Part shown: positions 8,577 to 61,616 of the stretch, piece after piece
Numbering within the stretch: position 1 is the first letter of the stretch
Layout: the number at the start of each line of letters is the position of its first letter
Assembly (NCBI GenBank): GCA_015061945.1
Contig: SUVP01000001.1
Location: 248,001 to 312,000 of the forward strand
From: Opitutales bacterium
GTDB taxonomy: Bacteria; Verrucomicrobiota; Verrucomicrobiia; Opitutales; Intestinicryptomonadaceae
Direction: 5' to 3'
Length of the DNA: 64,000 bases
The notes under the pieces: model-generated
The model's database searches: none
The model's input: the letters and a program-made list of their open reading frames with translations, nothing else
Told to the model about the DNA's origin: nothing
Made by a program: the position numbers and the translations under genes

Positions 8577-9821
8577 ATGGCAAAATTTAAATACTCAGCA
8601 TTAGATAAAGAAGGTCGCGAAATGACCGGCGTTATCGAGTCGACAAGCGAAAGTCGTGCTCGCAAAGAGTTGACAGCTCAAGGCTTGACGGTATCACGCT
8701 TGACAGAAGTTGCAGTCAGTGCAGAAAAGAAATCTGCAGGTGCTAAAAAACAACGCAAACCATTAGTTGGCACAGGTGTCACAAGCGAAAACGTAACAAT
8801 CTTCTCACGCCAGTTGGCAACTCTGCTCAAGGCTGGCTTGCCGTTGCTCCGTTCGCTCGAAGTTATTGGTCGCCAAGAAAAAAATCCATACTTTAAGGAT
8901 ATTGTTGATAGCCTCGCAGACGCAGTTCGCACAGGTAATAAATTCTCTGACGGTCTCCAACAACACTCAAAAGTGTTCGACAAGCTCTATATCAATATGG
9001 CTCGTGCCGGTGAAGCTGGTGGCGTGCTCGATGTAGTTCTCGATCGTCTCGCAACTTTCCAAGAAAAAGCGATGAAAACAACTAACAAAGTTAAGAGTGC
9101 GATGGTCTACCCTGTCGTTATCTTGAGCGTTGCAGTTGCAATCGTTGTTATTCTTATGATTTTCGTTGTTCCGCAATTCCAAAAAATCTTCCAAGATATG
9201 CTCAACGGAGCTCCGATGCCTGCCCTCACCCAAATGATTATCGATATATCCGACTTTATGAAAGTCAATTATATCGCAACATTGGGTATTGTCGCTGGTG
9301 CAATCTTGGTAATCCGCCTTTTCTTCAAGACAAAAGTCGGTATGCGTGTTTGGGATATCGCAGCACTTAAACTCCCAAAATTTGGCGACCTTGTGATGAA
9401 ATCAACTGTCGCACGTTTCACTCGTACATTCGGTACACTGCTCGCTTCAGGTGTTCCGATTCTCGAAGCTCTTACAATCACAAAAGGTACTATTAAAAAT
9501 AGCTTGATTGTTGACGCACTCACTCGCGTGCACGATCGCGTTCGCGATGGTGAACCACTCGCAACACCACTCGACCAACAAAAGATTTTTCCAACTATGG
9601 TAACAAGTATGGTTGAAGTTGGCGAAGAAACTGGTCAGCTCTCTGAAATGCTTAACCGCATTGCAGATAACTATGACGAAGAAGTTGATAACGCTGTCGG
9701 TGGTATAACATCTGTTATCGAACCTATTATGATTGTCTTCCTCGCAGTAGTCGTAGGTACAATCGTTATTGCCCTCTTCCTCCCAATTATCCAAATCATC
9801 CAAAAACTCACAGGTGGTTAA
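8577..9821 (+). CDS. pilC: Type IV pilus / type II secretion platform protein PilC/GspF
   Basis: An inner-membrane platform protein of 414 residues that couples the assembly ATPase to pilin extraction. The N-terminus (KFKYSALDKEGREMTGVIE) is typical of the family. Two GspF cytoplasmic domains follow, each containing the FSRQLATLLKAGLPLLRSLE / FTRTFGTLLASGVPILEAL type motif. Three transmembrane segments are visible: about residues 178-200, 220-245 and the C-terminal IEPIMIVFLAVVVGTIVIALFLPI. It closes the motor operon. Its prepilin partners are probably those at 39.7-43.5 kb. A double-hairpin element starts 5 bases after the stop. Confidence 0.94.
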   Translation: MAKFKYSALDKEGREMTGVIESTSESRARKELTAQGLTVSRLTEVAVSAEKKSAGAKKQRKPLVGTGVTSENVTIFSRQLATLLKAGLPLLRSLEVIGRQEKNPYFKDIVDSLADAVRTGNKFSDGLQQHSKVFDKLYINMARAGEAGGVLDVVLDRLATFQEKAMKTTNKVKSAMVYPVVILSVAVAIVVILMIFVVPQFQKIFQDMLNGAPMPALTQMIIDISDFMKVNYIATLGIVAGAILVIRLFFKTKVGMRVWDIAALKLPKFGDLVMKSTVARFTRTFGTLLASGVPILEALTITKGTIKNSLIVDALTRVHDRVRDGEPLATPLDQQKIFPTMVTSMVEVGEETGQLSEMLNRIADNYDEEVDNAVGGITSVIEPIMIVFLAVVVGTIVIALFLPIIQIIQKLTGG

Positions 9822-9826
9822 TTTTC

Positions 9827-9924
9827 GACACCAACGGGCGATTGCCACATGGCAATATCGCCCTTTGAAACAACTTTTCTAAATAATGAGAGATAACCTC
9901 AAGACATCGAGGTTATCTTTTTTT
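9827..9924 (+). repeat. Double-hairpin 3'-end element, copy 1
   Basis: It begins 5 bases after the pilC stop. The first hairpin is GGGCGATTGCC / GGCAATATCGCCC (9836-9863). A terminator-like hairpin with GATAACCTC / GAGGTTATC arms and a T-run follows (9891-9924). Copy 2 (11529-11630, opposite orientation) matches it over about 95 bases, including the linker. Copy 3 lies at 59788-59890. Confidence 0.75.
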
Positions 9925-9933
9925 ATGATACCA

Positions 9934-10121: not shown

Positions 10122-11303
10122 ATGAAAAAACTTATCTTAACTTTATTTATTACACTATTTTCAATATTAGCATCTTTGGGGCAAAACATCGCCGAATTGA
10201 AACAAAAAGCCGAACAAGGCGATGCTAACGCACAATACATTTTTGGGTGTTGTTATGCATGTGGCGATGGTGTAGAAAAAGATCCACGAGAAGCTGTTAA
10301 ATGGTACAGAAAAGCTGCTGAACAAGGCGAAGCACTTGCACAATGCAATCTTGGCTTGTGTTATGTTAGTGGCTATGGCGTAGAAAAAGATCCACGAGAA
10401 GCTGTTAAATGGTACCGTAAAGCTGCTGAACAAGGCGAAGCACTTGCACAATGCAATCTTGGCTTGTGTTATGTTAATGGCTATGGCGTAGAAAAAGATC
10501 CACGAGAAGCTGTTAAATGGTTCCGTAAATCTGCTGAACAAGGTCTAAAAGGAGCACAATACTATCTTGGCGTGCGTTATTACAATGGCGATGGCGTAGA
10601 AAAAGATCTTCGAGAAGCTGTTAAATGGTACAGAAAAGCTGCTGAACAAGGCGATGCTCAAGCACAATGCTATCTTGGGTGTTGTTATGCATATGGCGAA
10701 TGTGTAGAAAAAGATCCACGAGAAGCTGTTAAATGGTACAGAAAAGCTGCTGAACAAGGTCATGCTTATGCTCAATTCGCTCTTGGTGTGTGTTATGAAA
10801 AAGGCAAAGGTGTAGAAAAAGACACTCGAGAAGCTGTTAAATGGTACCGTAAATCTGCTGAACAGGGTGATGCTATAGCACAATGCAATCTTGGGTATTG
10901 TTATGCATATGGCGAAGGTGTAGAAAAAGATCCACGAGAAGCTGTTAAATGGTACCGTAAAGCTGCTGAACAAGGTCTAAAAGGAGCACAATACAGTCTT
11001 GGGTATCGTTATGCAAATGGCGATGGTGTAGAAAAAGATCTTCGAGAAGCTGTTAAATGGTACAGAAAAGCTGCTGAACAAGGCGATGCTAAAGCACAAT
11101 ACAATCTTGCCTTGTGTTATGCTAAAGGCGATGGTGTAATTCAAAACAATGTAAAAGCATATGCGTGGTTTGCATTAGCATCGGCAAATGGGAATGAAGA
11201 AGCAAAAAAAAATATGGATATTCTTAAAAAAGGAATGACTCCCAACCAAATTGTAGAAGCTCAAAAGTTGGCAGAAAAATACTACAACGGAAAATTTGAT
11301 TAA
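10122..11303 (+). CDS. Secreted Sel1-like (TPR-type) repeat protein
   Basis: A 393-residue protein with a signal peptide (MKKLILTLFITLFSILASLG) followed by nine 36-residue Sel1 repeats of the form AEQGxAxAQxxLGxxYxxGxGVEKDPREAVKWYRKA. The C-terminal cap is non-repetitive. Sel1 proteins are helical scaffolds for protein-protein contacts, often in the periplasm or in host interaction; no partner is visible here. The 108-bp DNA units are nearly identical, and repeats 4 and 8 share an LKGAQY variant exactly 432 bp (four units) apart, pointing to recent tandem amplification. It sits alone between two convergent double-hairpin elements. Confidence 0.9.
   Translation: MKKLILTLFITLFSILASLGQNIAELKQKAEQGDANAQYIFGCCYACGDGVEKDPREAVKWYRKAAEQGEALAQCNLGLCYVSGYGVEKDPREAVKWYRKAAEQGEALAQCNLGLCYVNGYGVEKDPREAVKWFRKSAEQGLKGAQYYLGVRYYNGDGVEKDLREAVKWYRKAAEQGDAQAQCYLGCCYAYGECVEKDPREAVKWYRKAAEQGHAYAQFALGVCYEKGKGVEKDTREAVKWYRKSAEQGDAIAQCNLGYCYAYGEGVEKDPREAVKWYRKAAEQGLKGAQYSLGYRYANGDGVEKDLREAVKWYRKAAEQGDAKAQYNLALCYAKGDGVIQNNVKAYAWFALASANGNEEAKKNMDILKKGMTPNQIVEAQKLAEKYYNGKFD
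10190..11150 (+). repeat. Tandem 108-bp repeat array coding Sel1 units
   Basis: About nine in-frame units of 108 bp, with a core such as GAAGCTGTTAAATGGTA repeated nearly unchanged. The segment starting at 10541 recurs at 10973, so there is also a 432-bp higher-order period. Copy number is likely to vary between strains. Confidence 0.85.
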
Positions 11304-11380: not shown

Positions 11381-11527
11381 TTAAGATTCCTTTCGCTTGT
11401 TTTGGATATTATATAACATCAAATCAGGAATATCTTTTCTATCGTAGAAGTAAATACGCCTATCTTTTATATTATAAGATGCATTAAATTTTTTTGAGTA
11501 GTTTCTTGTCTGCTCAAATCCTCTAAA
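11381..11527 (-). pseudogene. Possible truncated gene tail
   Basis: On the minus strand a frame directly after a TAG runs 48 codons with plausible protein composition (for example NASYNIKDRRIYFYDRKDIPD) to a TAA at 11381. It has no start codon, and its upstream end abuts double-hairpin copy 2. I do not recognise a family. It may be the stump of a gene cut off when this segment was rearranged. Confidence 0.25.
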
Positions 11528-11528
11528 C

Positions 11529-11630
11529 TAAAAGAGATAACCTCAAATGTTGAGGTTATCTCTCACTATTTCGGCAACCTGTTTTAAAGGGCGATATTAC
11601 CTTGTGGCAATCGCCCGCAAGTGTCCGACA
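11529..11630 (-). repeat. Double-hairpin 3'-end element, copy 2
   Basis: On the minus strand it begins about 10 bases after the potD stop. It carries the same GC-rich hairpin (GGGCGATTGCC / GGTAATATCGCCC) and a second hairpin with a perfect 14-bp stem (AGAGATAACCTCAA / TTGAGGTTATCTCT, 11533-11563). The second hairpin is near a T-run in both directions, so it may also terminate the Sel1 gene. Confidence 0.75.
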
Positions 11631-11639
11631 TATAAAAGA

Positions 11640-12683
11640 CTAATTAGATTTTATAGCGTCCCAAATTTTGTTGAATTTTACGTTATCTTTGCCGAGATCA
11701 CGGATAAGTTCAGCACGCTTGTAGAGTTCGTCGGCGATAAACATCCCCGGGTGATTTTTATTTTCTTCGGATACGAATTTGCGAGCTTCTGGAATTGGCG
11801 AGCAGTAGCAAGTAAATTCCATATTTTTTGCTGCAATTTTAGGATCGCAAAGGAAGTTAATAAATTTGTATGCAAGGTCTTTGTTTTGAGCTGTTGCTGG
11901 GATTACCCAGTCGTCGCAACTCATCGAAATACCTTCTTTGGGGCACATATATGACAAGTGTGGCGATTCAGCTAAAACTTGGAAAAGGTCACCACTATAA
12001 CCTTGAACGATAAGGAATTCGCCCGATTGAATACCAACTTTGTAAAGTTCGTTATCAAATTTTGCCAAATTTTTCTTCCATTTAAGAAGTTGATTTTTAG
12101 CTTTTTCCAACGCGACATCGTCAGTAGTATTCATACTTTTACCAGTGAAGAAAAGAGCCGAACCGATTGTTTCGCGGTGGTCGTTAAGCATAGTCATTTT
12201 GCCAGCGTATTTTTCGTTCGAGAAAACGTCCCAAGTTTCAGGGATAGTACCGAGCTTTTCTTTATTGTAAGCTACGCATGTGAAACCGAGCATATATGGA
12301 ACGCTATATTGCATCGTTTTATCGAGTGCGATACTGTTCAAATATACCTTATTAATAAATTGGCAGTTAGGCAACTTTGAATGGTCGAGTTTTTCGAGCA
12401 TATTTTGGTCGAACATAACTTTTGCCATATAAGTTGTCGGGAGGATAACGTCGTATCCAGTACCGCCAGCTTTTAGCTTTGAGTACATAAACTCGTTAGA
12501 GTCGAAAATATCTATAACAACTTTGCAGTTGTTTTGTCGCTCGAACTCTTGAACGAGATCTAAGTCTATATAGTCTGACCACATATAGACGTTAAGGGTG
12601 GGTTTTGATGGACCACACGCAGTTAAAATTACGCAAGCGAGCGCCGACAATGCGAGCACAAACGTATTTATGTATTTCTTCAT
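11640..12683 (-). CDS. potD: Spermidine/putrescine ABC transporter substrate-binding lipoprotein PotD
   Basis: The polyamine-binding component, 347 residues. The start at 12683 gives a lipoprotein signal (MKKYINTFVLALSALACVILTAC), with GGAAG as ribosome site; the longer frame to 12812 overlaps potC and lacks this logic. The mature protein opens LNVYMWSDYIDLDLVQEFE, typical of PotD/PotF. Further family features are GYDVILPTTYMAKVMF, VAYNKEKLG and ETIGSALFFTGKSMN. It is the last gene of potA-potB-potC-potD, 22 bases after potC. Binding of spermidine versus putrescine cannot be settled by eye. Confidence 0.93.
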   Translation of the reverse strand: MKKYINTFVLALSALACVILTACGPSKPTLNVYMWSDYIDLDLVQEFERQNNCKVVIDIFDSNEFMYSKLKAGGTGYDVILPTTYMAKVMFDQNMLEKLDHSKLPNCQFINKVYLNSIALDKTMQYSVPYMLGFTCVAYNKEKLGTIPETWDVFSNEKYAGKMTMLNDHRETIGSALFFTGKSMNTTDDVALEKAKNQLLKWKKNLAKFDNELYKVGIQSGEFLIVQGYSGDLFQVLAESPHLSYMCPKEGISMSCDDWVIPATAQNKDLAYKFINFLCDPKIAAKNMEFTCYCSPIPEARKFVSEENKNHPGMFIADELYKRAELIRDLGKDNVKFNKIWDAIKSN

Positions 12684-12705
12684 TTCTTCCTTTAGTTTGA
12701 TTGAG

Positions 12706-13485
12706 TTATTGGTTTGAGTTTCTTTTCTGAAAACACTGTCCGAGAATTGCCACAGTAAATGTAAGCCCCATAAATACAACCGACAATGCGTTGATAATCG
12801 ACGGAGCACCATGTTTCATCATACTATATACTTTAACTGGCAATGTCGTACTCCCCGGACCACCGACGAAAAACGTTACAACAAAGTCGTCCATTGAAAG
12901 CGTGAATGCCATCATTGCACCAGCTGCGATTCCGGGTCCGAGCAATGGCAACAAAATCTTTACAAAAATTCTGCCCGACCCTGCCCCTAAATCTTGAGCA
13001 GCTTGAATGATATTAAAATCGAAGTCTTGCAATCGGGCAAGAACTGTAAAAGTTACATAACTTACACAGAATGTAATATGTGCTAAAATCACAGTGAGCA
13101 TACCAAGTTGGATATGCATACTTACGAACATCAGCAACAAGCTAATCCCCATAAGGACATCTGGCACGATTAACGGAGCATAAACAAGCCCGTAGTGTGT
13201 TGTTTGGAATTTTGAATTTTTATATTTATTCAAAACCCACGCTGCACAAGTGCCGATTGCTGTCGCAAAAAATGTTGAAATACAAGCGATAATCAAAGTA
13301 TTTATCGTTGCATTGATAACTGCTGAATCTCTAAACAACGCCTCGTACCATTTCAGCGAAAACCCGAGCCACTTGCCACCATATCTCGACGCATTGAACG
13401 ATTGCACAATGAGTGTGAGAATCGGCAAATACATAAAAGTCATCACAATAAGAGTGATTAAAAGCGATGTGTATCGAGTTCTCAT
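12706..13485 (-). CDS. potC: Spermidine/putrescine ABC transporter permease PotC
   Basis: An inner-membrane permease of 259 residues with about six transmembrane helices and the binding-protein-dependent transport EAA-type loop (AAQDLGAGSGRIFVKILLPLLGPG) that docks on the ATPase. The N-terminus (MRTRYTSLLITLIVMTFMYLPI) matches PotC. It overlaps potB by 4 bases (ATGA), indicating translational coupling. Confidence 0.93.
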   Translation of the reverse strand: MRTRYTSLLITLIVMTFMYLPILTLIVQSFNASRYGGKWLGFSLKWYEALFRDSAVINATINTLIIACISTFFATAIGTCAAWVLNKYKNSKFQTTHYGLVYAPLIVPDVLMGISLLLMFVSMHIQLGMLTVILAHITFCVSYVTFTVLARLQDFDFNIIQAAQDLGAGSGRIFVKILLPLLGPGIAAGAMMAFTLSMDDFVVTFFVGGPGSTTLPVKVYSMMKHGAPSIINALSVVFMGLTFTVAILGQCFQKRNSNQ

Positions 13486-15741: not shown

Positions 15742-17526
15742 ATGAAAAAAGTCTTACCCCTAATTATTCTTGCAACGTGTGCTTCGGGCTATGCACTCGA
15801 ACAACTGACAGTTGAAATGCCTGGCTATTACCACACAGGCACGTCTTCAACAAGAACATATATCAACACCTATTTCACCCAAAATAGTATTGATCAGTCA
15901 GAATTTGAAATTAACTTAATTGGCAATTCTAAACAAGTTGAAGCCGATAAACTCGGCTACATGTATGGTGCTAACGACGTAAAAATTCGCTCGTTCGTCG
16001 CAGTTGATGAAACAGCTGAAAACGGCAAAGGTGGCGTTAATCTCGCAAACGCAACGGGACACGGCAATGGCGTAACAGGTTTGACTATCGACATCAATTC
16101 AGCAACAGAAGCAACTGCAATAGACGTAGCATGGTGGAAACAAAACTATGTTAAAACAATAGTTAAAAATTCTCAAATTACAACAGCAACAAAAGACTCC
16201 CCTATTACCAATCTGAACTTTGGCGAGTATTTTACTACTTGGGGTAGTGGAACACAAACATCGCAATTTATTTTTGAAAAAATCAATGCAAATGTAACGG
16301 CTGGAATATACAGAATTGCTACTGAAGGTACAGGTTTGCATACGCTCCAAGTTAAAGATACAGCAAGAGTAGTTTTAAATGGCGCAATTGAAGTAGGAAA
16401 AGCAGAAGGCTACAAAGGGTATCTCGATATTGACGGCACTTTGATAACAAACGACAAAACAAACGTCTATAAAAATTCAACAGTTGACGTTTCTGGAACT
16501 TGGGAAAACAATGGTGCTGTCGTACTAAAAAATGGTTCTTCGATGAATGTTTCAGGGACAATGACCCTTAAAAACCAAATAACTTTGCAAACTGGTTCTA
16601 CCGCTACTGTTTCAGGAACAATTACGACAACAAATAAGGCTATTGATATCAATTCTGGTGCAACATTAAATATCAGTGGTAATTTGGATACTGGTGGTGG
16701 CAATTATGTGATGATTCAAGGCACACTCAATATTACAAATACAAACCCAACAGAACGCGTTGACTTCTACTCAATTAATTCTTCGACAAAAGTCGGCGGA
16801 ACATTCACACAATCGCTCGCCGATGCTTCAGTTAAAGCAGGATATAGAGGTGTAAAAATCAGACGTTCTGCTTATTTGAATGATGCAACTTGGTCTCTCG
16901 ATGAGGTTATCGAATTGTGTGGCGATATCGTAACTGGTGCAGATGCAGACATTACATCGGCAAAATTGTATGTTGATGGAACTTCAAAAATCACACTTCA
17001 CGAACGCACAGGTGCAAATGCACGTTTGATCATGTACAATATGTCGAAAGCATATTTGAACACTGCAAATTGCATAAAAGACCAAAATGGTAATGATGTA
17101 GATCTTATCGTTGCAAAAAATGATGATAACAGAAATGTCTACACAGCAGAATTGCATATGACAGCTGACCAATCTTTCGCATATATCAACTTGGCAAACG
17201 ATTTTAAAATCTTCCTCGATGATGATTCTTCAACACTCAAACTTACAAGAACAGGTGCAAGTGCAATATCATTTGGCGACGCATCAATGCGTGTATATGT
17301 ATATGGTTTTGAAGATAACCGCATTTACGTTGGCGAACATCAAAACACATACAATATTCTCGATAGAATCATTGCATACGGCGACAAAGAAGGTAAAGAA
17401 ACAATCGGTGCTTTGACAATCAACAATGGTTGGTTGGTAAGTGCAGCAGTGCCAGAACCAGCAGAATGGGCGATGATTTTAGGTAGTCTCGCTCTCGGGT
17501 TGGCAATCTACCGCAAAAGAAAATAA
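15742..17526 (+). CDS. PEP-CTERM-tagged secreted beta-repeat surface protein 1
   Basis: A 594-residue exported protein. A signal peptide (MKKVLPLIILATCASGYA) is followed by a long Thr/Asn/Ser/Gly-rich body with repeating beta-strand turns (STVDVSGTWENNG, SSMNVSGTMTLKN, STATVSGTITTTN), like autotransporter or beta-helix passenger regions. The C-terminus has the PEP-CTERM sorting tag VPEPAEWAMILG, a hydrophobic helix and the basic tail IYRKRK. Such tags are processed by an exosortase, which is not in this window, and commonly deliver proteins to the surface or an extracellular polysaccharide matrix. Two relatives follow at 19787 and 21697. Specific ligand unknown. Confidence 0.85.
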   Translation: MKKVLPLIILATCASGYALEQLTVEMPGYYHTGTSSTRTYINTYFTQNSIDQSEFEINLIGNSKQVEADKLGYMYGANDVKIRSFVAVDETAENGKGGVNLANATGHGNGVTGLTIDINSATEATAIDVAWWKQNYVKTIVKNSQITTATKDSPITNLNFGEYFTTWGSGTQTSQFIFEKINANVTAGIYRIATEGTGLHTLQVKDTARVVLNGAIEVGKAEGYKGYLDIDGTLITNDKTNVYKNSTVDVSGTWENNGAVVLKNGSSMNVSGTMTLKNQITLQTGSTATVSGTITTTNKAIDINSGATLNISGNLDTGGGNYVMIQGTLNITNTNPTERVDFYSINSSTKVGGTFTQSLADASVKAGYRGVKIRRSAYLNDATWSLDEVIELCGDIVTGADADITSAKLYVDGTSKITLHERTGANARLIMYNMSKAYLNTANCIKDQNGNDVDLIVAKNDDNRNVYTAELHMTADQSFAYINLANDFKIFLDDDSSTLKLTRTGASAISFGDASMRVYVYGFEDNRIYVGEHQNTYNILDRIIAYGDKEGKETIGALTINNGWLVSAAVPEPAEWAMILGSLALGLAIYRKRK

Positions 17527-17546
17527 ATAAAATATAATTTTTTTAG

Positions 17547-17577
17547 AAAGACGTTCCATATCGGAACGTCTTTTTTT
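17547..17577 (+). terminator. Terminator after PEP-CTERM gene 1
   Basis: The stem AAAGACGTTCC / GGAACGTCTTT is followed by a T-run. The CGTTCC/GGAACG core recurs after the other two PEP-CTERM genes. Confidence 0.85.
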
Positions 17578-17712
17578 GTGTAAACAGATAGATTTTATCT
17601 TTGTAGTATGAAAAAAACGAGCTATTGCAAAGTAAAGGGTTTGACAAAAAGCAGAAAAAATATTTGAGTATTTTTTAGGATTTTTTGGAAAAATTTATAA
17701 ATTATATAGATT

Positions 17713-19786: not shown

Positions 19787-21529
19787 ATGAATAAACTATT
19801 ATTTATTTTTGCATCAGGCTTGTTTGCTACATCTGCAGTGTACGCAGTTAAAGGCTCTGCCGACGCCACAGCCCCAACAGCGATGTCGTCTTGGGGCGAT
19901 ATCACAGGAACAGAAGTTGTTTACCATGGCATAGGTGTATCGACCAATGTAATGACAGATGTATATGTTTCGGTCGATAAAGATGTGTCAATGAAGAAAT
20001 TTAAAGTGTCGGGTTCAGGCGGACATCACACAAATTTGAATCTCATATTCGACGGAACAGAACTCACAGAAACAGACTCTACCCCGTTTGATTATAATAA
20101 CACCCCTAAAGACCTCAATGGCGATGGAATCAACGATGCGACAACAAGCTACTCGACAGGTTTCTATTACAAAGCCAAAGAGACAACAGTTGACGGCAAT
20201 ACAACTTATTCAACCGGTACTGTGAATTTTACAAATTCTAATGTAAAAATCGAGTTGTATACATTAGACTCAAATTCAAATGCAGTTCAACAAGGTGATT
20301 ACGGCAGAACTATTTATTTCGGTAAAGGCATCACAGCCAATTTCACGACAAACGTACAAATTTCAGGACGCAACCCAGACTTGAAAGTTTCAGACTCCCT
20401 CTTCTCTGTTGCCGGACAAATGACTGTCGGCGGAATACTCTCACTTACCAACACAAATTTTGATGTTTCGGGAACACTCTCAACAGATAGAATCCGTCTC
20501 TATGACGGTGCAAACATCAACTACGATGGTTTAATTCAACAAGAAAAAGATGATATCCGTGCAGATATCGAAGCAGTTAGCGGTGTTTCAACAATCACTG
20601 TTGGTGCAAATAGCAAAGCGTTTGAATCTACAAGAATCAGAGTAGCAGAAGGTGCTACTTTGAACATAGATATAACAGCATATGGAAAAAAAATGCGTTT
20701 GTGCAATGCCACAACGACAATCAATGGCACATTGAATATTACATCAAACCAAGGCAATCACAGCGTATCAACATACATCAGAAACCCAACAATCGTTGAT
20801 GGTGGCACACTCACAGAAACAGGTAATAAAACAGCATTTATGTTGTCGGCTTATGGCGCACTATTGACTGTAAAAAATTCAGGCACACTAAGAACAACTA
20901 ATGGATATTTGTCAGTTGCAAGTGATGGCATAATTAAAGTCGAAGACGCTGGCTCAAAAATCGATTCAGAAAAACTCGTATTCTATGCCCTTGATTCCCA
21001 AGAGAAAACTGGCGAAATCTACTTGGCATCATCAACAAACCTTGTTCAAAAATCTGACTTGTATGTAAAGAATGCTGGATATTCATTTGAGTTAGAAGGT
21101 AAACTCTACTTGACAAAATGCGATGGCGTTTATGAATTTGGCGATGTAGAATTGCTCCGTTTGTCGAGCTTAAGAATCGACTTGAATGGTGCAAGTATGT
21201 CGATGGGTAAGCTCATGGTTCTCAACGGCAACCATACTGGAGGTGTAACAGGTTCACTCATTTTTGAAGACTTTGCAAATGGTTTGGTAAAAGTCGGTAT
21301 AGACGAAAGCATTTTGAATGCGGACGGCACACTCACATCATCACAAGATAATGTGTCCCTTTCAATTAAAGGATACGACTCAAACGGCAATTTGTTAACT
21401 GGTGATTGGAGCATCAACAACGGCTACTTGTGGAATAGTGCATTAGTAGCAGTTCCAGAACCAGCAGAATGGGCGATGATTCTCGGAGCGTTGGCACTCG
21501 GCTTTGCAATCTATCGCAAAAGAAAATAA
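19787..21529 (+). CDS. PEP-CTERM-tagged secreted beta-repeat surface protein 2
   Basis: A 580-residue exported protein with signal peptide MNKLLFIFASGLFATSAVYA. The body is low-complexity, with beta-helix-like segments (TVGGILSLTNTNFDVSGTLST, in part; GATLNIDITAYG; TTTINGTLNITSN). The C-terminal tag is VPEPAEWAMILG plus a hydrophobic helix and IYRKRK. It resembles proteins 1 and 3 in tag and overall style, while the middle regions differ, so these look like diversified adhesin or matrix proteins. It has its own predicted promoter and terminator. Confidence 0.85.
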   Translation: MNKLLFIFASGLFATSAVYAVKGSADATAPTAMSSWGDITGTEVVYHGIGVSTNVMTDVYVSVDKDVSMKKFKVSGSGGHHTNLNLIFDGTELTETDSTPFDYNNTPKDLNGDGINDATTSYSTGFYYKAKETTVDGNTTYSTGTVNFTNSNVKIELYTLDSNSNAVQQGDYGRTIYFGKGITANFTTNVQISGRNPDLKVSDSLFSVAGQMTVGGILSLTNTNFDVSGTLSTDRIRLYDGANINYDGLIQQEKDDIRADIEAVSGVSTITVGANSKAFESTRIRVAEGATLNIDITAYGKKMRLCNATTTINGTLNITSNQGNHSVSTYIRNPTIVDGGTLTETGNKTAFMLSAYGALLTVKNSGTLRTTNGYLSVASDGIIKVEDAGSKIDSEKLVFYALDSQEKTGEIYLASSTNLVQKSDLYVKNAGYSFELEGKLYLTKCDGVYEFGDVELLRLSSLRIDLNGASMSMGKLMVLNGNHTGGVTGSLIFEDFANGLVKVGIDESILNADGTLTSSQDNVSLSIKGYDSNGNLLTGDWSINNGYLWNSALVAVPEPAEWAMILGALALGFAIYRKRK

Positions 21530-21551
21530 TTAAAAACACAATTTTTCCAAG

Positions 21552-21582
21552 AGGCGTTCCAAATTTGGAACGCCTTTTTTTT
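21552..21582 (+). terminator. Terminator after PEP-CTERM gene 2
   Basis: The stem AGGCGTTCCAAA / TTTGGAACGCCT is followed by a T-run. Its core matches the terminators of the other two PEP-CTERM genes. Confidence 0.85.
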
Positions 21583-21639
21583 GCGTAAATAAAAAAGTCG
21601 CTCATATATCCCCACTGACTTGTCTGGGATAAAAAATAT

Positions 21640-21696: not shown

Positions 21697-23532
21697 ATGA
21701 AAACAAAAATAGTTTCAGTAGCACTTTCGACTCTCGCATTTTCAGCCACAAGTATGGCGTTGGATTATACAGTGGATAATATCCCTGATTTCGTTGAAAT
21801 ACCATCGAAACCAACCAACAACATGTACACAATAAATTTGTCGGCTGGTGAAGGAGTTGATCTCGCAAAATTTGACGCTGCAGAAAATGCAAATATTTTC
21901 TATTTGTTCACAAAAGAAGGTGCGCCTAACCCAGATGCAAGTTATTTGATTGCGTACGGAGCAAATATCATTCGCACAGATGCAAACGACGCAATAGTAG
22001 GATTGCGCACACCATCAAGCGAAGGTGGTAGAGATGCGACAATGACTTTTGCAAACGGTACATATAACCTTGGCACAAAAACAACAAGTGATGCCAGTGC
22101 AACACCATCACTTAGCTCAAATGGGTTGGCTCTTTCAGTTTGGGGAGCTAATGGCGAAAGCGCATCAACAGATAAAAGAGCAATTGTTATAGATAGCGAT
22201 GCAACTTTAAATGTTTATTCAACAAAGTTAAATTTGAAGTCGCACACAAATACATCTATCATTTTAAAAGGTACAGTAAATGTATTTAATCAGGCAATAG
22301 CATCGTTGAATCAATACACAACTGAAACTCCAGAAAACCCAACATACGGAAGAGTTGTTGTTATTGGCTCTACATCTGGAATCGATGGAAAAGGAACTAT
22401 AGTTGTAGATGGTGGAACACTTAATGCTTCTGAAATATATCAAGCAGAAGACGGATCAAAGATGAAAGTTATCAACGCTGGTAAAGTAAATCTCTACGGC
22501 GACGCTGTTAGCTTGAATGTTAAAGATTTCACTCTTGGCGACAATGTTACATCAACACAAGAAACAGTGAAAACAGCAGGTACATTGACGATTGAAGGTA
22601 CAAATTTTACATCGCTTGCCGATTCGAAAATCGAAGCAAGTAGCCTTACAATTAAAGCAACAAACGCCAACCTTGCTGGTACAATTTCGGCAACAGAAGG
22701 CACTCTTTTAGTTAATGGGGAAAACATTAACCTTGCTGGTACAATTTCAGTAGCTGGACGTTTCTCAAACGGCTACGCTATTAATTATAATTCGTCAGCT
22801 TCAATCACAGCTGATAGTTTCTGGACAGGTGAAAACAGCAACGTATTGTTAAATGGTTCAACTAAAATTACATCAACAGCAAGTAGTGATGCATTTGTAG
22901 TTATCAAGGGTTCTACTTTGACATTTGACGAAAACGCAAGTCTCGATCTAAACGGCAATGCAAGAATCGAAGTAAAAACAAATTCAACATTGATTGCAAA
23001 ATCAGCTGAAAAATCAATCCAAACAAGACACCTTATGTTGAGTGATGGAGCAAGAATTGAATTGCACACAAAAGAAGTTTTTGCAGACAACAATGGTGGC
23101 GACACAACTGTATTGCTTACAACCTACAAAACATCAAGCACTGTATATGTAAAGGAAACAAATAGTTTTGGTCAGACGGCTATCGCAAATAATATTAAAT
23201 TGTATTTAGAGCTCGACTTTGCAAGTTCAGATTCATACATAGACCTTGGTGAAATATACGCAACAGGAACTGGGAATAACCTCAATCTTTATGTGAAGAA
23301 TTTTGAAAATAATCGAATCAAAGCAGATTCTTTTAGATCAAACATGGGCAGTACATATCTCTACTTGTTCGACGAAGCATCACAAAAATATGTTCTCAAC
23401 GAAAATGCTCAATGGCTTGGCGACGCAACAAACGGCTATTGGTTGACAGTAGCAGTTCCAGAACCAGCAGAATGGGCGATGATTCTCGGAGCGTTGGCAC
23501 TCGGCTTTGCAATCTATCGCAAAAGAAAATAG
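21697..23532 (+). CDS. PEP-CTERM-tagged secreted beta-repeat surface protein 3
   Basis: A 611-residue exported protein. The signal peptide is MKTKIVSVALSTLAFSATSMA. The body is rich in Thr/Ser/Asn/Gly with beta-helix-like repeats; NLAGTISATEGTLLVNG is followed by INLAGTISVAG, a short internal duplication. It ends VPEPAEWAMILG, a hydrophobic helix, then IYRKRK. The last 24 residues, from VPEPAEW to the stop, match protein 2 exactly, including DNA-level similarity, so the tail was duplicated recently. Ligand and location are unknown beyond the sorting-tag inference. Confidence 0.85.
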   Translation: MKTKIVSVALSTLAFSATSMALDYTVDNIPDFVEIPSKPTNNMYTINLSAGEGVDLAKFDAAENANIFYLFTKEGAPNPDASYLIAYGANIIRTDANDAIVGLRTPSSEGGRDATMTFANGTYNLGTKTTSDASATPSLSSNGLALSVWGANGESASTDKRAIVIDSDATLNVYSTKLNLKSHTNTSIILKGTVNVFNQAIASLNQYTTETPENPTYGRVVVIGSTSGIDGKGTIVVDGGTLNASEIYQAEDGSKMKVINAGKVNLYGDAVSLNVKDFTLGDNVTSTQETVKTAGTLTIEGTNFTSLADSKIEASSLTIKATNANLAGTISATEGTLLVNGENINLAGTISVAGRFSNGYAINYNSSASITADSFWTGENSNVLLNGSTKITSTASSDAFVVIKGSTLTFDENASLDLNGNARIEVKTNSTLIAKSAEKSIQTRHLMLSDGARIELHTKEVFADNNGGDTTVLLTTYKTSSTVYVKETNSFGQTAIANNIKLYLELDFASSDSYIDLGEIYATGTGNNLNLYVKNFENNRIKADSFRSNMGSTYLYLFDEASQKYVLNENAQWLGDATNGYWLTVAVPEPAEWAMILGALALGFAIYRKRK

Positions 23533-23550
23533 AACACTTTTCATACGACA

Positions 23551-23582
23551 AAAATGCGTTCCAATTTGGGACGCATTTTTTT
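23551..23582 (+). terminator. Terminator after PEP-CTERM gene 3
   Basis: The stem AAAATGCGTTCC / GGGACGCATTTT, with one G-T wobble, is followed by a T-run. It is the third version of the GTTCC-core terminator. Confidence 0.8.
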
Positions 23583-23642
23583 GTAAAGCGATAAAAAGTC
23601 TCGACAGTTGGCAAAATATAAATAGGTTTTTAGATGTAAAAA

Positions 23643-28034: not shown

Positions 28035-28153
28035 GTGTCTAACATATTTTATTACACAATTTTTCGTCCAACATTTTATCGTTAAAATACACGTTAAAAA
28101 ATAATTCTTATCAAAACATAAACGACCCAAATTTCTAAAAAAAAATAAAGTAT

Positions 28154-29260
28154 ATGAAAACATCACTATTATTGGCAATCACAACATTTGTAGCGTCGGC
28201 GACATTTGCGTCGATAAACGTTTGCAACCCACCAAGCATAAAACTCAAGGAACCACCAAGACTCGAGAACCCCGACTCGTTCTCGATGATTCTTTTTGGC
28301 GACACGCAAACGTACAACAAATTTACTTTCAATCAACCTATCTTTGAATTGATGACTGCGTGGACAGCATCGCACAAAGATATTCTGAAAATCAAAGCTA
28401 CTCTCTCAACTGGCGATATTGTCGATAGAAACGACGCCCTTATTTTATCTACAACAAAACTGCCAAGAATAAACGGCAACACTCCAAGTATGGATATGTG
28501 GCAAACTGCGGCACGCTCGTACGCACGTCTCGACGGTGTTCTCCCTTATATTTTGGCGACAGGCAACCATGATTATGGCTACAACTCGGCAGAAAATCGC
28601 AATACATATTTCAATAAATATTTCCCGATTCTAAAAAATAAATGTTGGCAAGATTGCCTTGTATCAACTGCTCCAAATGCACAAGGCGTGATGAGTTTAG
28701 AAAACGCTGCGTACGAGTTTGACGACAAGAACTGGGGGAAAATCCTCGTCGTTTCGCTCGAGTTTGCTCCACGCGATTGCATTCTCGAGTGGGCGAAAAA
28801 GCTCACTAAAAGCGATAAGTATAAAAATCATAAAGTGATTATCCTAACGCACTCGATTTTGAATACAAAAGTAAACGGAGTTAAAATTATCGAAAAAGAA
28901 AAATACAAGTTGCCAGAACCAAATTGGGGCAAAGCCGTTTTGGAAAAACTTGTTTCAGATTCCGATAATATTAAACTTGTCTTGTGTGGACACTCTGGCG
29001 ACAAAACAAGATTTTGCTCGAATCTTGAATACAAAAATAAAGCTGAACGCACTGTGCATATCGTTATGTTTAACCCGCAATTTATAATGGGTAGCGACGG
29101 CAATGGTGGCGACGGCTGGCTTCGCATTATGGAATTTATGCCCGACGGCAAAACAATTTCTATGCGTACATACTCACCTCTTTTCGCTGTGTCGGCAATC
29201 ACCCAACACCTCGCATGGAAAAAAGATAGCGAAGGTCAATTTAAAATCGAAATACAATAA
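28154..29260 (+). CDS. Secreted calcineurin-like metallophosphatase, copy 1
   Basis: A 368-residue exported phosphoesterase. The signal peptide is MKTSLLLAITTFVASATFAS. Metal-binding motifs appear in order: ILFGDTQTY, LSTGDIVD, ATGNHDYG, ILTHSIL and LCGHSGD, so the bimetal site looks complete. Substrate unknown; extracellular phosphoesters of nucleotides, phytate or phospholipids are possible. A close paralogue starts 5 bases after the stop, and a transglutaminase-like gene follows, forming a tight three-gene operon. Confidence 0.85.
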   Translation: MKTSLLLAITTFVASATFASINVCNPPSIKLKEPPRLENPDSFSMILFGDTQTYNKFTFNQPIFELMTAWTASHKDILKIKATLSTGDIVDRNDALILSTTKLPRINGNTPSMDMWQTAARSYARLDGVLPYILATGNHDYGYNSAENRNTYFNKYFPILKNKCWQDCLVSTAPNAQGVMSLENAAYEFDDKNWGKILVVSLEFAPRDCILEWAKKLTKSDKYKNHKVIILTHSILNTKVNGVKIIEKEKYKLPEPNWGKAVLEKLVSDSDNIKLVLCGHSGDKTRFCSNLEYKNKAERTVHIVMFNPQFIMGSDGNGGDGWLRIMEFMPDGKTISMRTYSPLFAVSAITQHLAWKKDSEGQFKIEIQ

Positions 29261-29265
29261 TAAAT

Positions 29266-30372
29266 ATGAAAATTAAAATTCTTTTTTCAATTTCGACAAT
29301 TTTCGCAACTGCACTATTTGCGTCGACAAGCGTTTGCAATCCACCAAATATCAAGCTAAAAGAACCACCACGCTTGGAAAATCCCGACTCGTTCTCGATG
29401 ATTCTTTTTGGCGACACGCAAACGTACACAAAGTTTACATTCAACCAACCTATCTTTGAATTGATGACAGCTTGGACTGCCGCACACAAAGATGTCTTGA
29501 ATATCAAAGCAACCCTCTGCACTGGCGACCTTGTTGATAAGAATGATTACTTTTTGCCCTCGTGCCCAAAATACAAACAAGTAAACGGCAACACGCCCAG
29601 TATGGATATGTGGCAAAGTGTTGCGCGCTCATTCTCAAGGCTCGATGGCGTTATGCCTTATATTATTGCAACTGGCAACCACGACTATGGTATTATATCG
29701 GCAGAAAATCGCAACAGCCATTTCAACAAATATTTCCCAATCCTAAAAAATAAATGCTGGAAAGATTGCCTTGTTTCAACAACTCCAAACGGACAAGGCT
29801 ATATGAGTTTGGAAAATGCTGCTTACGAATTTGACGACAAAAATTGGGGAAAGCTCCTTGTTATTGCTCTCGAATTTGCTCCACGCGATTGTGTCTTAAC
29901 ATGGGCAAAAGCTCTCACAAAATCGGACAAATACAAGGCACATAAGGTTATTGTTATCACACACTCGATTCTTGAAACAAATAAAAACGTTGTCAAAATT
30001 TGTGAGAAAGAAGGATACAAATTGCCTGATCCTAACTGGGGCAAAGATGTTTTGGAAAAGCTCGTTTCAGACTCTGAAAATATCAAGCTTGTATTATGTG
30101 GACACTCGGGCGACATAACACGCTTCCAATCAAAGCTCGACTACAAAACAAAAGCAAACCGAGTTGTGCCTATTGTAATGTTCAACCCACAAAGTTGTGG
30201 TGGTTGGGACGCTAACGGTGGCGATGGTTGGCTTCGCATTATGGAATTTATGCCCGATGGCAAAACAATTTCTATGCGTACATACTCTCCACTTTTTGCG
30301 GTGTCAGCTACAACACAAGATTTTGCTTGGAAGAAAGACAAAGAAGCTCAATTTAAAATCGAAATAGAATAA
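29266..30372 (+). CDS. Secreted calcineurin-like metallophosphatase, copy 2
   Basis: A same-length (368) paralogue of the preceding protein, identical over long stretches (SFSMILFGDTQTY, FNQPIFELMTAWTA) and diverged in the 90-110 region and C-terminal half. The signal peptide differs (MKIKILFSISTIFATALFAS). Motifs GDTQTY, CTGDLVD, ATGNHDYG, ITHSIL and CGHSGD are all kept, so both copies appear functional. Its TAA overlaps the next gene's ATG by one base. Confidence 0.85.
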   Translation: MKIKILFSISTIFATALFASTSVCNPPNIKLKEPPRLENPDSFSMILFGDTQTYTKFTFNQPIFELMTAWTAAHKDVLNIKATLCTGDLVDKNDYFLPSCPKYKQVNGNTPSMDMWQSVARSFSRLDGVMPYIIATGNHDYGIISAENRNSHFNKYFPILKNKCWKDCLVSTTPNGQGYMSLENAAYEFDDKNWGKLLVIALEFAPRDCVLTWAKALTKSDKYKAHKVIVITHSILETNKNVVKICEKEGYKLPDPNWGKDVLEKLVSDSENIKLVLCGHSGDITRFQSKLDYKTKANRVVPIVMFNPQSCGGWDANGGDGWLRIMEFMPDGKTISMRTYSPLFAVSATTQDFAWKKDKEAQFKIEIE

Positions 30373-32051
30373 TGAAAAAAATAATCGCTCTACTCGTTGG
30401 TATCTTGCCAATTCAAATTTGCCTTGCACAAGATTGTATCGCCGACTTCGATGCATCGACTGCAAAAACATTTTTTGATAACAAGCCAAACCTCACCGAA
30501 AAAATAAACGATTATATAAAATCGGCTCGGGCAGATTATGCAAAAAATGATTTTGAAAACGCATCAAAAAAAATGCACATCGCAAATTTTTTTGATGCAC
30601 TAACAAAGGCGGAATCGTCGGCGTCGGAAAATATCAAAGTTGAAATTCTGTCTAATGCCGATTTTCTGAAAAACCTAATTGGCGAAATATCGCCAAAAGA
30701 CGACATCAAAAAAGTTTTTGAAATACTCTCGAACATACAAAAATCTTCGCCTGAAAAATTTTCAAAATATCGCAATCTCGCAGGTGCAATCGCCATTGTT
30801 TTCGATGCTCCTCCACCTGAAAATTGGCCACACGCACAAGTATCAAAAGACTTGTTGCCACGCACATTACCCGAGCCAATCGACGCATTCAAAAAAATTG
30901 TCGACACTCGTGAACGTGGAAAATTCTTGTTGCCCACTGAAAAACTATCTATCGAAGAATTGAAATATTTAGTGGCATCGCCCGCAAACGACGAAGACAA
31001 ACAATGGGCTCAACAAAGTATTTCTGTAAACTTGGCAAACATCGCAAAACTTTATCCGTCTATTAAGTACGATTTCCAACGCTTAAACGCAAAAAAATTT
31101 GACTGGGAAGGCTCTGATTATCGCCTCAAAACAATTAAATCGGAAGGCGGTATTTGCACCGATCAATCGTATTTTACATCGGAAGTCGCAAAGGCAAAAG
31201 GCGTGCCAGCCTTTGTTTTTTCGGGTGCTGGCAGTGATGGCTTTCATGCATGGGTTGCATATATGCAAAAATCGGGTTCGTGGAATTTCAACGTTGGCAG
31301 ATACGAAAATGCTCGCTTTGTTACAGGCACAACTATCGATCCTCAAACGTGGGAAACCGCAACCGACCACCAATTAAACGCAATGCGTGAAGGTTTCAGA
31401 AATGGTACTAAATATGCCCTCTCAGAAATTCACTCTATGTTCGCAAAATATTTTTACGACAACAAAGAATTTAAACGTGCAGAAGACTCGGCTAAGAAAT
31501 CTATTGTCGCCGACCAACGCAATACATCGGCGTGGGATATTCTAATTGCTTCGCTCGAAAAACAAGAACGCCCAAGCCAAGAAATAATCAAAATGTATGA
31601 ATCGGCAATCAAGGCGTTTTCCAAATATCCAGATATCGACGCACAGTTCCGACGCAAATGTATTAAATTGCTTATCGCCGACGGAAAGAACGATATCGCA
31701 CGCCGAATGTCGACTTCAATAATCGTAAAAACAAAAGCAAACCGACCAGATATAGCTATGGAATTTGCACGTCGAGAGCTTCAACTTGAAATTAAAAACG
31801 GCACACAAGATAAAATTGTATCTTCGTATAAACGTTTGATTGCACCGTTTAAATCAGACCCAGCAATGATGATAAACGGTCTCGTTATCCCGATTATAAA
31901 CTCCTTGCTCAATACCGACAAATATGCGTACGCAAACGATATTATCAAGGCGACAAAGCAAACGGTGAAATCAAAAGATGCAACAATCAAATCAAGTCTT
32001 GATAATATTGAAGCACAAGTTCAGAAAATTATATCTAAAAAGAACAAATAA
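30372..32051 (+). CDS. Secreted transglutaminase-like protein with C-terminal helical repeats
   Basis: A 559-residue exported protein; the signal peptide is MKKIIALLVGILPIQICLAQ. The central region reads GGICTDQSYFTSEVAKAKGVPA then DGFHAWVAY, the transglutaminase-like Cys/His core with C262 and H292. The third catalytic residue is not obvious: the usual WxxVDP appears as WNFNVGRY, and D323 is an alternative. The C-terminal 200 residues look TPR-like (YDNKEFKRAEDSAKKSIVAD). The role could be a protease, transglutaminase or scaffold. The one-base overlap with copy 2 of the metallophosphatase makes this a translationally coupled unit. Confidence 0.65.
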   Translation: MKKIIALLVGILPIQICLAQDCIADFDASTAKTFFDNKPNLTEKINDYIKSARADYAKNDFENASKKMHIANFFDALTKAESSASENIKVEILSNADFLKNLIGEISPKDDIKKVFEILSNIQKSSPEKFSKYRNLAGAIAIVFDAPPPENWPHAQVSKDLLPRTLPEPIDAFKKIVDTRERGKFLLPTEKLSIEELKYLVASPANDEDKQWAQQSISVNLANIAKLYPSIKYDFQRLNAKKFDWEGSDYRLKTIKSEGGICTDQSYFTSEVAKAKGVPAFVFSGAGSDGFHAWVAYMQKSGSWNFNVGRYENARFVTGTTIDPQTWETATDHQLNAMREGFRNGTKYALSEIHSMFAKYFYDNKEFKRAEDSAKKSIVADQRNTSAWDILIASLEKQERPSQEIIKMYESAIKAFSKYPDIDAQFRRKCIKLLIADGKNDIARRMSTSIIVKTKANRPDIAMEFARRELQLEIKNGTQDKIVSSYKRLIAPFKSDPAMMINGLVIPIINSLLNTDKYAYANDIIKATKQTVKSKDATIKSSLDNIEAQVQKIISKKNK

Positions 32052-59544: not shown

Positions 59545-59787
59545 ATTTGATTCCTGTTAATGATATTAATATTGATTTACTAAAAAAACTGCACCGAGTT
59601 TTTCACAATTCAAAGATATTGTCAATTTTTTGATTTATTTTTTTTACGATTTCCCAAAGATTTTTTCGCCTCACCGACACCGACAATCTGTTGCAGTGAA
59701 CAGTATCCCAAGCTATGTTTACGGAGCTAAATACGACGAGTTCAAGTTGCCACGTTTTTTATCAGAAAAATACACCATTTAAAAACT

Positions 59788-59890
59788 AAAACGAAAACTC
59801 TCCAACGCCTTGGAGAGTTTTCTGTAAAATCGGCAATCCGAAATCAGCGAGCGATATTGCCTACGGCAATCGCTCGCCGGTGCCCGTCAT
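59788..59890 (-). repeat. Double-hairpin 3'-end element, copy 3
   Basis: On the minus strand it begins about 10 bases after the stop of the PEP-CTERM remnant. GC-rich hairpin GCGAGCGATTGCC / GGCAATATCGCTCGC (59847-59877), then a spacer and a terminator hairpin with a 13-bp stem, GAAAACTCTCCAA / TTGGAGAGTTTTC (59793-59822). Same layout as copies 1 and 2, with diverged second-hairpin sequence. Confidence 0.65.
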
Positions 59891-59900
59891 GTAAAAAAAA

Positions 59901-60023
59901 TTATTTTCTTTTGCGATAGACTGCCAACCCGAGTGCCAACACACCGCTAACACGCAACATTTGCGAAGACTGCCTGAATTCTGCGTTCACAACGCCATCG
60001 CAATTTAACAAAGCTTTTTTTAT
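59901..60023 (-). pseudogene. PEP-CTERM-type C-terminal remnant
   Basis: A 40-codon minus-strand frame lying between a TAG and a TAA ends GVLALGLAVYRKRK, closely resembling the SLALGLAIYRKRK and ALALGFAIYRKRK ends of the intact PEP-CTERM proteins. The preceding residues (VNAEFRQSSQMLRVS) have lost the PEP motif, and no start codon or body exists. It reads as the stump of a deleted surface protein gene. Confidence 0.6.
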
Positions 60024-60032
60024 CTATAATTA

Positions 60033-60099
60033 GCAGGTGAGCCACCTGCACATCGTTGAAGGGGCGTTGCCCCTTATGGAGATTGCTTTGCAATGCTCC
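60033..60099. repeat. Three consecutive short perfect or near-perfect hairpins
   Basis: GCAGGTG/CACCTGC (60033-60049), AAGGGGC/GCCCCTT (60059-60075) and GGAG-TTGC/GCAA-CTCC with bulges (60078-60099), spaced about 10 bases apart. They follow the stop of the Gfo/Idh gene at 60165 on the minus strand. No T-runs, so not a standard terminator; REP-like sequence is possible. Confidence 0.55.
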
Positions 60100-60164
60100 T
60101 ATCCCTGTTTGGATTTTTATTTGATAATTGTTGCTATTTTGCCTACTTGTTTTAATAAAGTTTA

Positions 60165-61616
60165 TTATAAAATAAATTCCTTTCGGTATTCATACAAAGA
60201 GTGTAAATGCTTGTCGATTTCGACAGAGCCAAATGATTTTCTCTTTGTATCGAAGTGTAATTCTTCGCCAGAGAACAATGTTGAGAGCGAGCCAAGTTGG
60301 CAAATTTGAGCGAGTCTTGAAGCCGATGTAAATGGCGATGATGTCTTGCACTTGCCCAAGCACGCCCACGCAAATTCAAAATGCGGATTCGACGGAAATG
60401 CCGATCGCTCAATTTTCTGTGGTGGAAATGCTTTTGCTTTTTTCAACTCTATCATTTTTTGACGTGGGAAAATTTTCATCGCACTTCCATAGAGTCCCAC
60501 TTGCACCGCCCCTGTTTCGCCCTCGATAAGCAAGATATTTCGAGGTCGGCGGTCGGCAAAATTTCGGGCAATCAAAGTTTCCATATCGACATCTTTTATC
60601 GAGTCGGGCATACGTCCGCCGTCGTACCAACGCATTTTCATAATACCGTCTCGCGCGTACGGAGTTTCAAATTCAAAATCAATTTGGTTTGAGCTTGCCC
60701 AAGTGTAATCGTTGAGCGACGTCTTGTCGCAAGTCGCTTTCAATTTTCGTGGAAGTGGCAAGTCGATTGCGTTAAAAATTGGTTCGATAATATGGCAACC
60801 CATATCGCCAATCGCACCTGTGCCGTAATTGCGTAAACCACGCCAGTTGAACGGCACGACATTCGGCGAGTAAGGCATATCGGGCGCAACGCCAAGCCAC
60901 AACTTGTAGTCGAGCGAACTTGGGATTTTCGACGCATCGGGAATTGCAAGGTTACCTTGTGGCCATATCGGGCAAGGTGTCATACAATGCACTTGCGTTA
61001 TTTTTCCGATAATATTGGCGTCGAGCCATTCGCGGAGTCTTCGCCATGAATCGCTTGTTGCGCCTTGATTTCCCATTTGCGTGATAACTCCAGCTTTTTG
61101 AGCCAAACGCGTCATTTCATCGGCTTCCCAAAAAGTTCGCGACAATGGTTTCTCGCAAAAGACGTGCTTGCCTTCGAGAATCGCACGGGCGGTTATCGGA
61201 TAGTGCATATGGTCGGGAACTGCGACCACAACAGCATCAATTTTATCCGACATTTCGTCGAACATCTTGCGATAATCTTTATACTTTGGAATTTTTGGAA
61301 ACGCTCTAAATGATGCCGACGCAAAGTCCCAATCGACATCACAAAATGCGACGAGCTCACATGGTGGACAATTTGGCAATGGTTTAAAAATCGCATTGCC
61401 CAAAACTTTTCGATTAGCTTTTGAAAACTGTGCAAGCCCTACTCCGCCGAACGTTTCAACCGCAACTTCGCCACGTCCGCCTGGGCCAATTATTGCAATA
61501 CGCAAGCGTTCGCTCGGCTTACCTTTCGTCGATTTCGCCCACGACGGCAATATCAACATCGACGACGAAAGCGTTGTTAAAGTTTTACAAAAATTGCGTC
61601 TCGAAAAATTTTTCAT
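60165..61616 (-). CDS. Gfo/Idh/MocA-family oxidoreductase, Tat-exported
   Basis: A 483-residue exported oxidoreductase. The twin-arginine signal is SRRNFCKTLTTLSSSMLILPSWA. Rossmann motif GPGGRGEVAVE, VAVPDHMHYPITA, FCEKPLSRTFWEADEM (canonical EKP), QMGNQGATSDSW and GAIGDMGCHIIEP. Related to the protein at 56301 in architecture and key segments, sharing MHYPI, PLxRTxWEA and YGTGAxGDMxCHxxE. It lies 10 bases after the sugar-isomerase-like gene in the same direction, so they probably process the same carbohydrate. Confidence 0.87.
   Translation of the reverse strand: MKNFSRRNFCKTLTTLSSSMLILPSWAKSTKGKPSERLRIAIIGPGGRGEVAVETFGGVGLAQFSKANRKVLGNAIFKPLPNCPPCELVAFCDVDWDFASASFRAFPKIPKYKDYRKMFDEMSDKIDAVVVAVPDHMHYPITARAILEGKHVFCEKPLSRTFWEADEMTRLAQKAGVITQMGNQGATSDSWRRLREWLDANIIGKITQVHCMTPCPIWPQGNLAIPDASKIPSSLDYKLWLGVAPDMPYSPNVVPFNWRGLRNYGTGAIGDMGCHIIEPIFNAIDLPLPRKLKATCDKTSLNDYTWASSNQIDFEFETPYARDGIMKMRWYDGGRMPDSIKDVDMETLIARNFADRRPRNILLIEGETGAVQVGLYGSAMKIFPRQKMIELKKAKAFPPQKIERSAFPSNPHFEFAWACLGKCKTSSPFTSASRLAQICQLGSLSTLFSGEELHFDTKRKSFGSVEIDKHLHSLYEYRKEFIL

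Follow-up and report, generated by a model that had tools for sequence, protein, structure and literature searches.

What the double-hairpin element in this stretch of DNA is, and why its copies stand directly behind stop codons, is the question raised by the 64,000-nt window, the whole stretch that was analysed. A preliminary description had seen three copies there and read them as a portable 3'-UTR module, a terminator combined with an RNA-stability or RNA-protein site. We found all three where it had placed them, the starts it gave lying 5, 9 and 10 nt 3' of the stop codons of pilC, potD and a PEP-CTERM remnant; the location thus stood, but the repeat reaches about 10 nt further 5', into a T-run, than had been described. 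The GTGTC/GTGCC lead attributed to the element is the reverse complement, and in gene direction the leads read GACACC, GGACACTT and GGGCACC. The features concerned are as follows, with unit bounds taken from the covariance model described below.

8577 to 9821, plus strand: pilC, type II secretion F domain (Pfam T2SSF), host gene 5' of copy 1
9819 to 9821, plus strand: pilC stop codon TAA, with copy 1 next to it
9818 to 9926, plus strand: unit copy 1; hairpin 1 at 9832-9867, putative terminator hairpin 2 at 9888-9921 with T-run
10122 to 11303, plus strand: Sel1-repeat protein gene (Pfam Sel1, 9 repeats, E 3e-117), between copies 1 and 2
11527 to 11639, minus strand: unit copy 2; hairpin 1 at 11571-11628, putative terminator hairpin 2 at 11532-11564
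11640 to 11642, minus strand: potD stop codon TAG, with copy 2 next to it
11640 to 12812, minus strand: potD-like solute-binding protein gene (Pfam SBP_bac_8), host gene 5' of copy 2
59786 to 59898, minus strand: unit copy 3, main subfamily; hairpin 1 core at 59845-59879, putative terminator hairpin 2 at 59793-59822
59901 to 59903, minus strand: stop codon TAA of the PEP-CTERM remnant, with copy 3 next to it
60032 to 60140, plus strand: fragment of a core of about 400 nt (G000:C14:308032-308140), 90% identical to element-query positions 204-313

Copies 1 and 2, described as alike over about 95 bases, share 82% identity across 97 nt and form a matched inverted pair (I2; 76 nt, 84%) flanking the Sel1-repeat gene. 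Folding z-scores against shuffled sequence are -8.0, -6.7 and -5.6 for copies 1, 2 and 3, and the hairpin-1 core has no chance matches in shuffled sequence; a terminator scan gives matches in all three copies, such matches being no rarer in shuffles. Near-identical PEP-CTERM coding ends recur in the window (17445-17580, 21448-21583, 23451-23586 and 59899-59946), and PEP-CTERM-like gene ends lie directly 5' of units elsewhere too (C4:223102 and C12:32714). A further stretch of the window, 28138-30385, holds long repeats spaced 1112 nt apart with 77-82% identity (D2, D3, D6).

The three copies turn out to be part of a family of 40-47 copies in the genome, which was searched as an assembly of 2.52 Mb in 15 contigs (97% complete, some contigs ending in the units' repeats), with hexamer-based gene calls on fetched stretches. 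The exact core occurs 12 times, the reversed control pattern not at all. A covariance model was built from 14 units, from which copies 1 and 2 were deliberately left out; genome-wide it detects 42 units at E<1e-5, or about 47 with weaker ones, and recovers both copy 1 (E 1.2e-8) and copy 2 (E 6.5e-12). Searching the fetched loci with the same model gives 40 strong units, including copy 1 (48 bits, E 8e-10) and copy 2 (61 bits, E 5e-13), again from outside the model, as well as copy 3, a model member, at 134 bits. All 23 TGAMGGGCACCG sites in the genome are units. The idea of an uptake sequence was rejected, as the lead motif is confined to units and has only 23 occurrences.

The basic unit of about 112 nt consists of a T-run, a hairpin 1 with bulges on its 3' side, a linker of about 25 nt and a hairpin 2 of intrinsic-terminator type, the consensus running T-run, (A)TATGACGGGCACC, hairpin 1, linker, hairpin 2, TTTTCGTTTTAG. 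Its 5' lead is (T)GACGGGCACC and its ends read TTTTTTATATGACGGGC. From the outside inwards, hairpin 1 comprises an outer helix GCACC/GGTTGC, a 3'-side bulge of about 7 nt and the main stem, followed by a 2-nt 3'-side bulge (UA) or a 1x2 internal loop, a short stem and a loop of 3-4 nt. Hairpin 2, a stable stem of about 13 bp followed by a T-run, has the build of an intrinsic terminator; a T-rich tail in 39 of 40 units agrees with the terminator-type character already ascribed to it, and its stem covaries. Rfam yields no match in the window at the gathering score, and sub-threshold matches only, in loci with full elements.

Since MAFFT misaligned the hairpin tips where haplotypes differed, the covariation counts were made within a single subfamily and repeated on a model-guided alignment. 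In the recent subfamily, whose alignment was not fitted to the model, 12 pairs show changes in both partners, in 50 cells, and one-sided changes are absent; the alignment of 40 units, which was fitted to the covariance model and leans towards it, shows 18 pairs changed on both sides (147 cells), compared with 4-7 pairs when the partners are slid. The lack of one-sided changes in the young subfamily could reflect either strict selection or arm-to-arm correction at the DNA level. Strong covariation in both hairpins, together with a 3'-side asymmetry of hairpin 1 that about 35 of 40 units retain although their stems have changed, would fit a cis-acting RNA module in which hairpin 1 is a putative binding or stability site and which spread by benefit to host transcripts rather than selfishly.

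Units were said to lie 3' of genes and in gene direction, and 43 of 47 indeed have a same-strand gene upstream. The unit start lies at most 15 nt from a same-strand stop codon in 27 of 47 cases, compared with 5% when intergenic positions of the window are drawn at random (p~1e-22 against this null), and between -60 and +40 of such a stop in 35 of 47, compared with 12%. The host genes, named from their sequences, are unrelated (guaA, queC, miaB, ybaB, glgP, ribF, yicC and others), and one unit lies 3' of tRNA-Leu. Such gene-direction placement behind unrelated genes and a tRNA is again in keeping with an RNA module, whereas the four units that do not follow a same-strand gene, and host genes that share no evident function, are not.

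Comparison with orthologues in congeners indicates native C-termini for pilC (which ends in QKLTGG, identically to its orthologues), ybaB, c12pfk, c12b and c8a, and orthologues of the potD-like protein end at the equivalent residue. In queC, miaB and c9a the last few residues differ from those of the congener orthologues because the element supplies the stop codon. The 3' regions of orthologous genes in congeners are unrelated. Between c12b and nusA, the element occupies the place of the congener's 3' region of about 75 nt, T-run included, which is absent; judged from this comparison, the native 3' region seems to have been replaced rather than interrupted, for which simple insertion fails to account. 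A test for repeated 3' flanks on the contig-14 sample of the genome gave 4 v 4, from paralogous genes, and no enrichment, as the family is sparse on contig 14.

Besides occurring singly, units form the ends of larger elements. Seven convergent unit pairs are the inverted ends of a non-coding element of about 620 nt, with a core of 391-405 nt that holds several hairpins and is nearly identical in all seven, at seven unrelated loci; no convincing gene or ORF was found in the seven cores. The remaining copies occur singly, in tandem or as convergent pairs at short distance, and at four sites or more a partial unit is joined directly to a full one. By its similarity, the core fragment at 60032 to 60140 of the window is probably what remains of a full element close to copy 3.

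The stem haplotypes are shuffled among units and even between the two ends of one element, and this, with the occurrence of tandem and nested units, would be explained if the copies were ordinary terminators homogenised by gene conversion without any mobility. Such an account leaves the unrelated 3' regions of congener orthologues, the near-identical core of about 400 nt at seven unrelated loci and the sharp 5' edges of the units unexplained, and we hold it to be very improbable. Dispersal and sharp edges suggest past mobility. Target-site duplications were not detected at the elements, direct repeats in the flanks averaging 4.1 nt compared with 4.8 nt in mismatched pairs, and neither an autonomous IS or transposase with matching ends nor a Y1/RAYT transposase (PF01797; control genomes positive) was found in the 97%-complete assembly, in which some contigs end in units.

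At one locus (L114 726-1721, G000:C11:42225-43220) the 3' end of a tyrosine recombinase gene abuts the core of an element without a left unit, and the core is partly duplicated there. As a mobiliser this recombinase was discarded, the adjacency being taken as coincidence, since integrase paralogues have no element nearby. The genome encodes several tyrosine recombinases, and an attC-like site, recombined by such an enzyme as a folded single strand, could be invoked for the one-sided extrahelical bases, the position right after stop codons and the inverted pair around the Sel1 gene. The units lack the RYYYAAC ... GTTRRRY core boxes of integron attC sites, however, and have outer arms GGGCACC and GGTTGC; moreover, the copies are dispersed rather than arrayed and the only adjacent integrase is the one whose paralogues lack an element, so that we give this explanation hardly any credence.

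Among the closest known systems are REP sequences and BIMEs, interspersed imperfect palindromes that occur solo or as inverted pairs in often species-specific families (PMC3733652, which also names the EFAR repeats of Enterococcus). REPs measure 20-40 bp and bear an unpaired tetranucleotide tag, GTAG or CGTC, the GTAG type being associated with RAYT transposases (PMC3733652, PMC12306157). Di Nocera and colleagues describe REPs between converging genes as mostly less than 20 bp from both 3' ends, and the termini of GTAG REPs often provide the stop codon (PMC3733652); reported translation-lowering effects of REPs are limited to a distance of 15 nt from the stop (PMC12306157). Our units share the location near gene 3' ends, also as inverted pairs (43 of 47; 27 of 47 at 15 nt or less), so that their positional habit is known in kind from REPs. 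They differ in being double hairpins of about 112 nt instead of a single palindrome of 20-40 bp; they have a T-run with a GACGGGC lead and incorporate a hairpin of intrinsic-terminator type, and the full elements possess a conserved core of about 400 nt. They also lack the GTAG/CGTC tag, GACG being the complement of CGTC and thus putting the tag on the wrong side, and their genome lacks a Y1/RAYT transposase. The differences from REPs lie in size, terminator, conserved core and the absence of tag and RAYT, as well as in the precision seen in the congeners G001 and G009 described below.

Bacterial MITEs such as Correia/NEMIS, RUP and RU-1 to RU-3 are short, non-coding and gene-adjacent, with foldable terminal inverted repeats (PMC2229807). 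The elements formed by our units answer to this description, the seven full ones having terminal inverted repeats around a non-coding core, yet their terminal repeats are double hairpins of about 112 nt, no target-site duplication or parent IS was found, and their location is linked to stop codons. The EFAR repeats, also palindromic, lie near the stops of converging genes, where they would terminate transcription in both directions. By description alone they resemble our family as repeated palindromic elements near stop codons, but here solo, tandem and full forms coexist, the full form with a conserved core.

The preliminary description had proposed a covariance-model search of the genome and its relatives, and had held that three copies only, without bias towards stop codons and without covariation, would speak against it; on all three counts the outcome was the opposite. 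Across the class, the model matches one of 286 genomes, namely this one with its 42-47 units, and none of the 285 others. The exact core is absent from 87 relatives, 13 congeners lack the family, and viral contigs, phages and plasmids gave no match. Weak model matches in congeners were judged one by one and dismissed as ordinary terminators or noise lacking hairpin 1. Two isolated matches to the exact core among 85,000 other species fall in unrelated bacteria and are taken as chance. The lack of sequence conservation even within the genus, as well as the inverted full elements with their conserved core, argues further against a cis-acting RNA module, which we consider unlikely.

Four congeners were sampled, each in part. 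In one of them, G001, a repeat scan of 800 kb (G001:C2:1-800000) revealed a different high-copy mosaic repeat, unrelated in sequence to the family described here. It is laid out as stop codon, hairpin 1 (TTTGGCGAATGCTTTTGG...CCAAAAGCATTGCGCCAAA, asymmetric by one base and with a palindrome inside), linker and ACGAACCTC..GAGGTTCGTTTTTTT, and occurs in 38 copies in G001, once in G008 (3' of pilC) and not at all in 17 other family genomes searched. Of 30 copies examined in G001, 19 start on the base right after an in-frame stop codon and three more at 1-3 nt; where a frame runs into the junction, it stops exactly there in 19 of 24 cases (p 5e-6 against 1/3). A local orthologue was available for 11 of the offset-0 cases, and in all 11 the protein terminates 0-3 residues from the native end. 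The G001 repeat often forms tandem arrays (L182-L221), for example at 61312 (plus) and 432566 (minus). The same contig carries, at about 703100-703790 (L060 1492-2162), a tandem array in which a 72-nt hairpin repeat, akin to part of the core of about 400 nt described above, occurs about nine times.

A third family was found in G009, reading TAA|AACGTGYG and continuing as a long palindrome that encloses a terminator, with the inverse CACGTTT at its end; its counterpart of the unit end reads AAACGTG. Six gene-proximal ends lie at 0 nt and three at 1-3 nt from an in-frame TAA, while distal ends are not at in-frame TAAs. The ends of the G009 element (loci L292-L311, for example G009:C5:25742) are inverted repeats. 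Repeated 3' flanks outnumber repeated 5' flanks by 33 v 4 in G001 and 12 v 1 in G009, the count in G004 being 0 v 0. The stop-codon position is common to the sister species and the sequence is not.

The reading that we consider probable is that the copies are lineage-specific, non-autonomous repeats, similar to REPs and MITEs, which bring their own terminator and were either inserted or kept at stop codons. The unit would exist alone, in tandem or as the inverted ends of a non-autonomous element of about 620 nt; inserted or retained at the 3' end of a host gene, it would become that gene's 3' UTR and terminator, sometimes also supplying the stop codon, and insertion would for this reason be nearly harmless to the host. 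The host transcript would run through hairpin 1 and end after hairpin 2, a terminator role that position and structure support well, and hairpin 1 may be kept structured by transposition, by an RNA function or by both. Related species would carry different families of similar plan, likewise locked to stop codons. The portable 3'-UTR module first proposed agrees with this in the dispersal, the location 3' of genes, the terminator-type hairpin and the covariation; it does not cover the inverted MITE-like element with its core, the four units without a same-strand gene, or the congeners, which share the position without the sequence.

A bolder and more doubtful proposal, to which we attach some possibility, is that structured mobile elements of this genus home on native stop codons and substitute a terminator of their own for the former 3' UTR, in independent families in at least three species. 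If so, this would imply a target choice or a mechanism of 3'-UTR replacement that has gone unrecognised, rather than chance insertion followed by selection. Clustering of REP-like sequences near stop codons is known. In three sister species there are three families, unrelated in sequence but similar in their plan of stop codon, hairpin and terminator, and as the position is conserved while the sequence is not, the questions of why such repeats cluster there and how families without a visible transposase spread become testable. If the units do terminate transcription, dozens of core genes, guaA, queC, miaB and pilC among them, would have had their 3' ends taken over by repeats of a mobile type.
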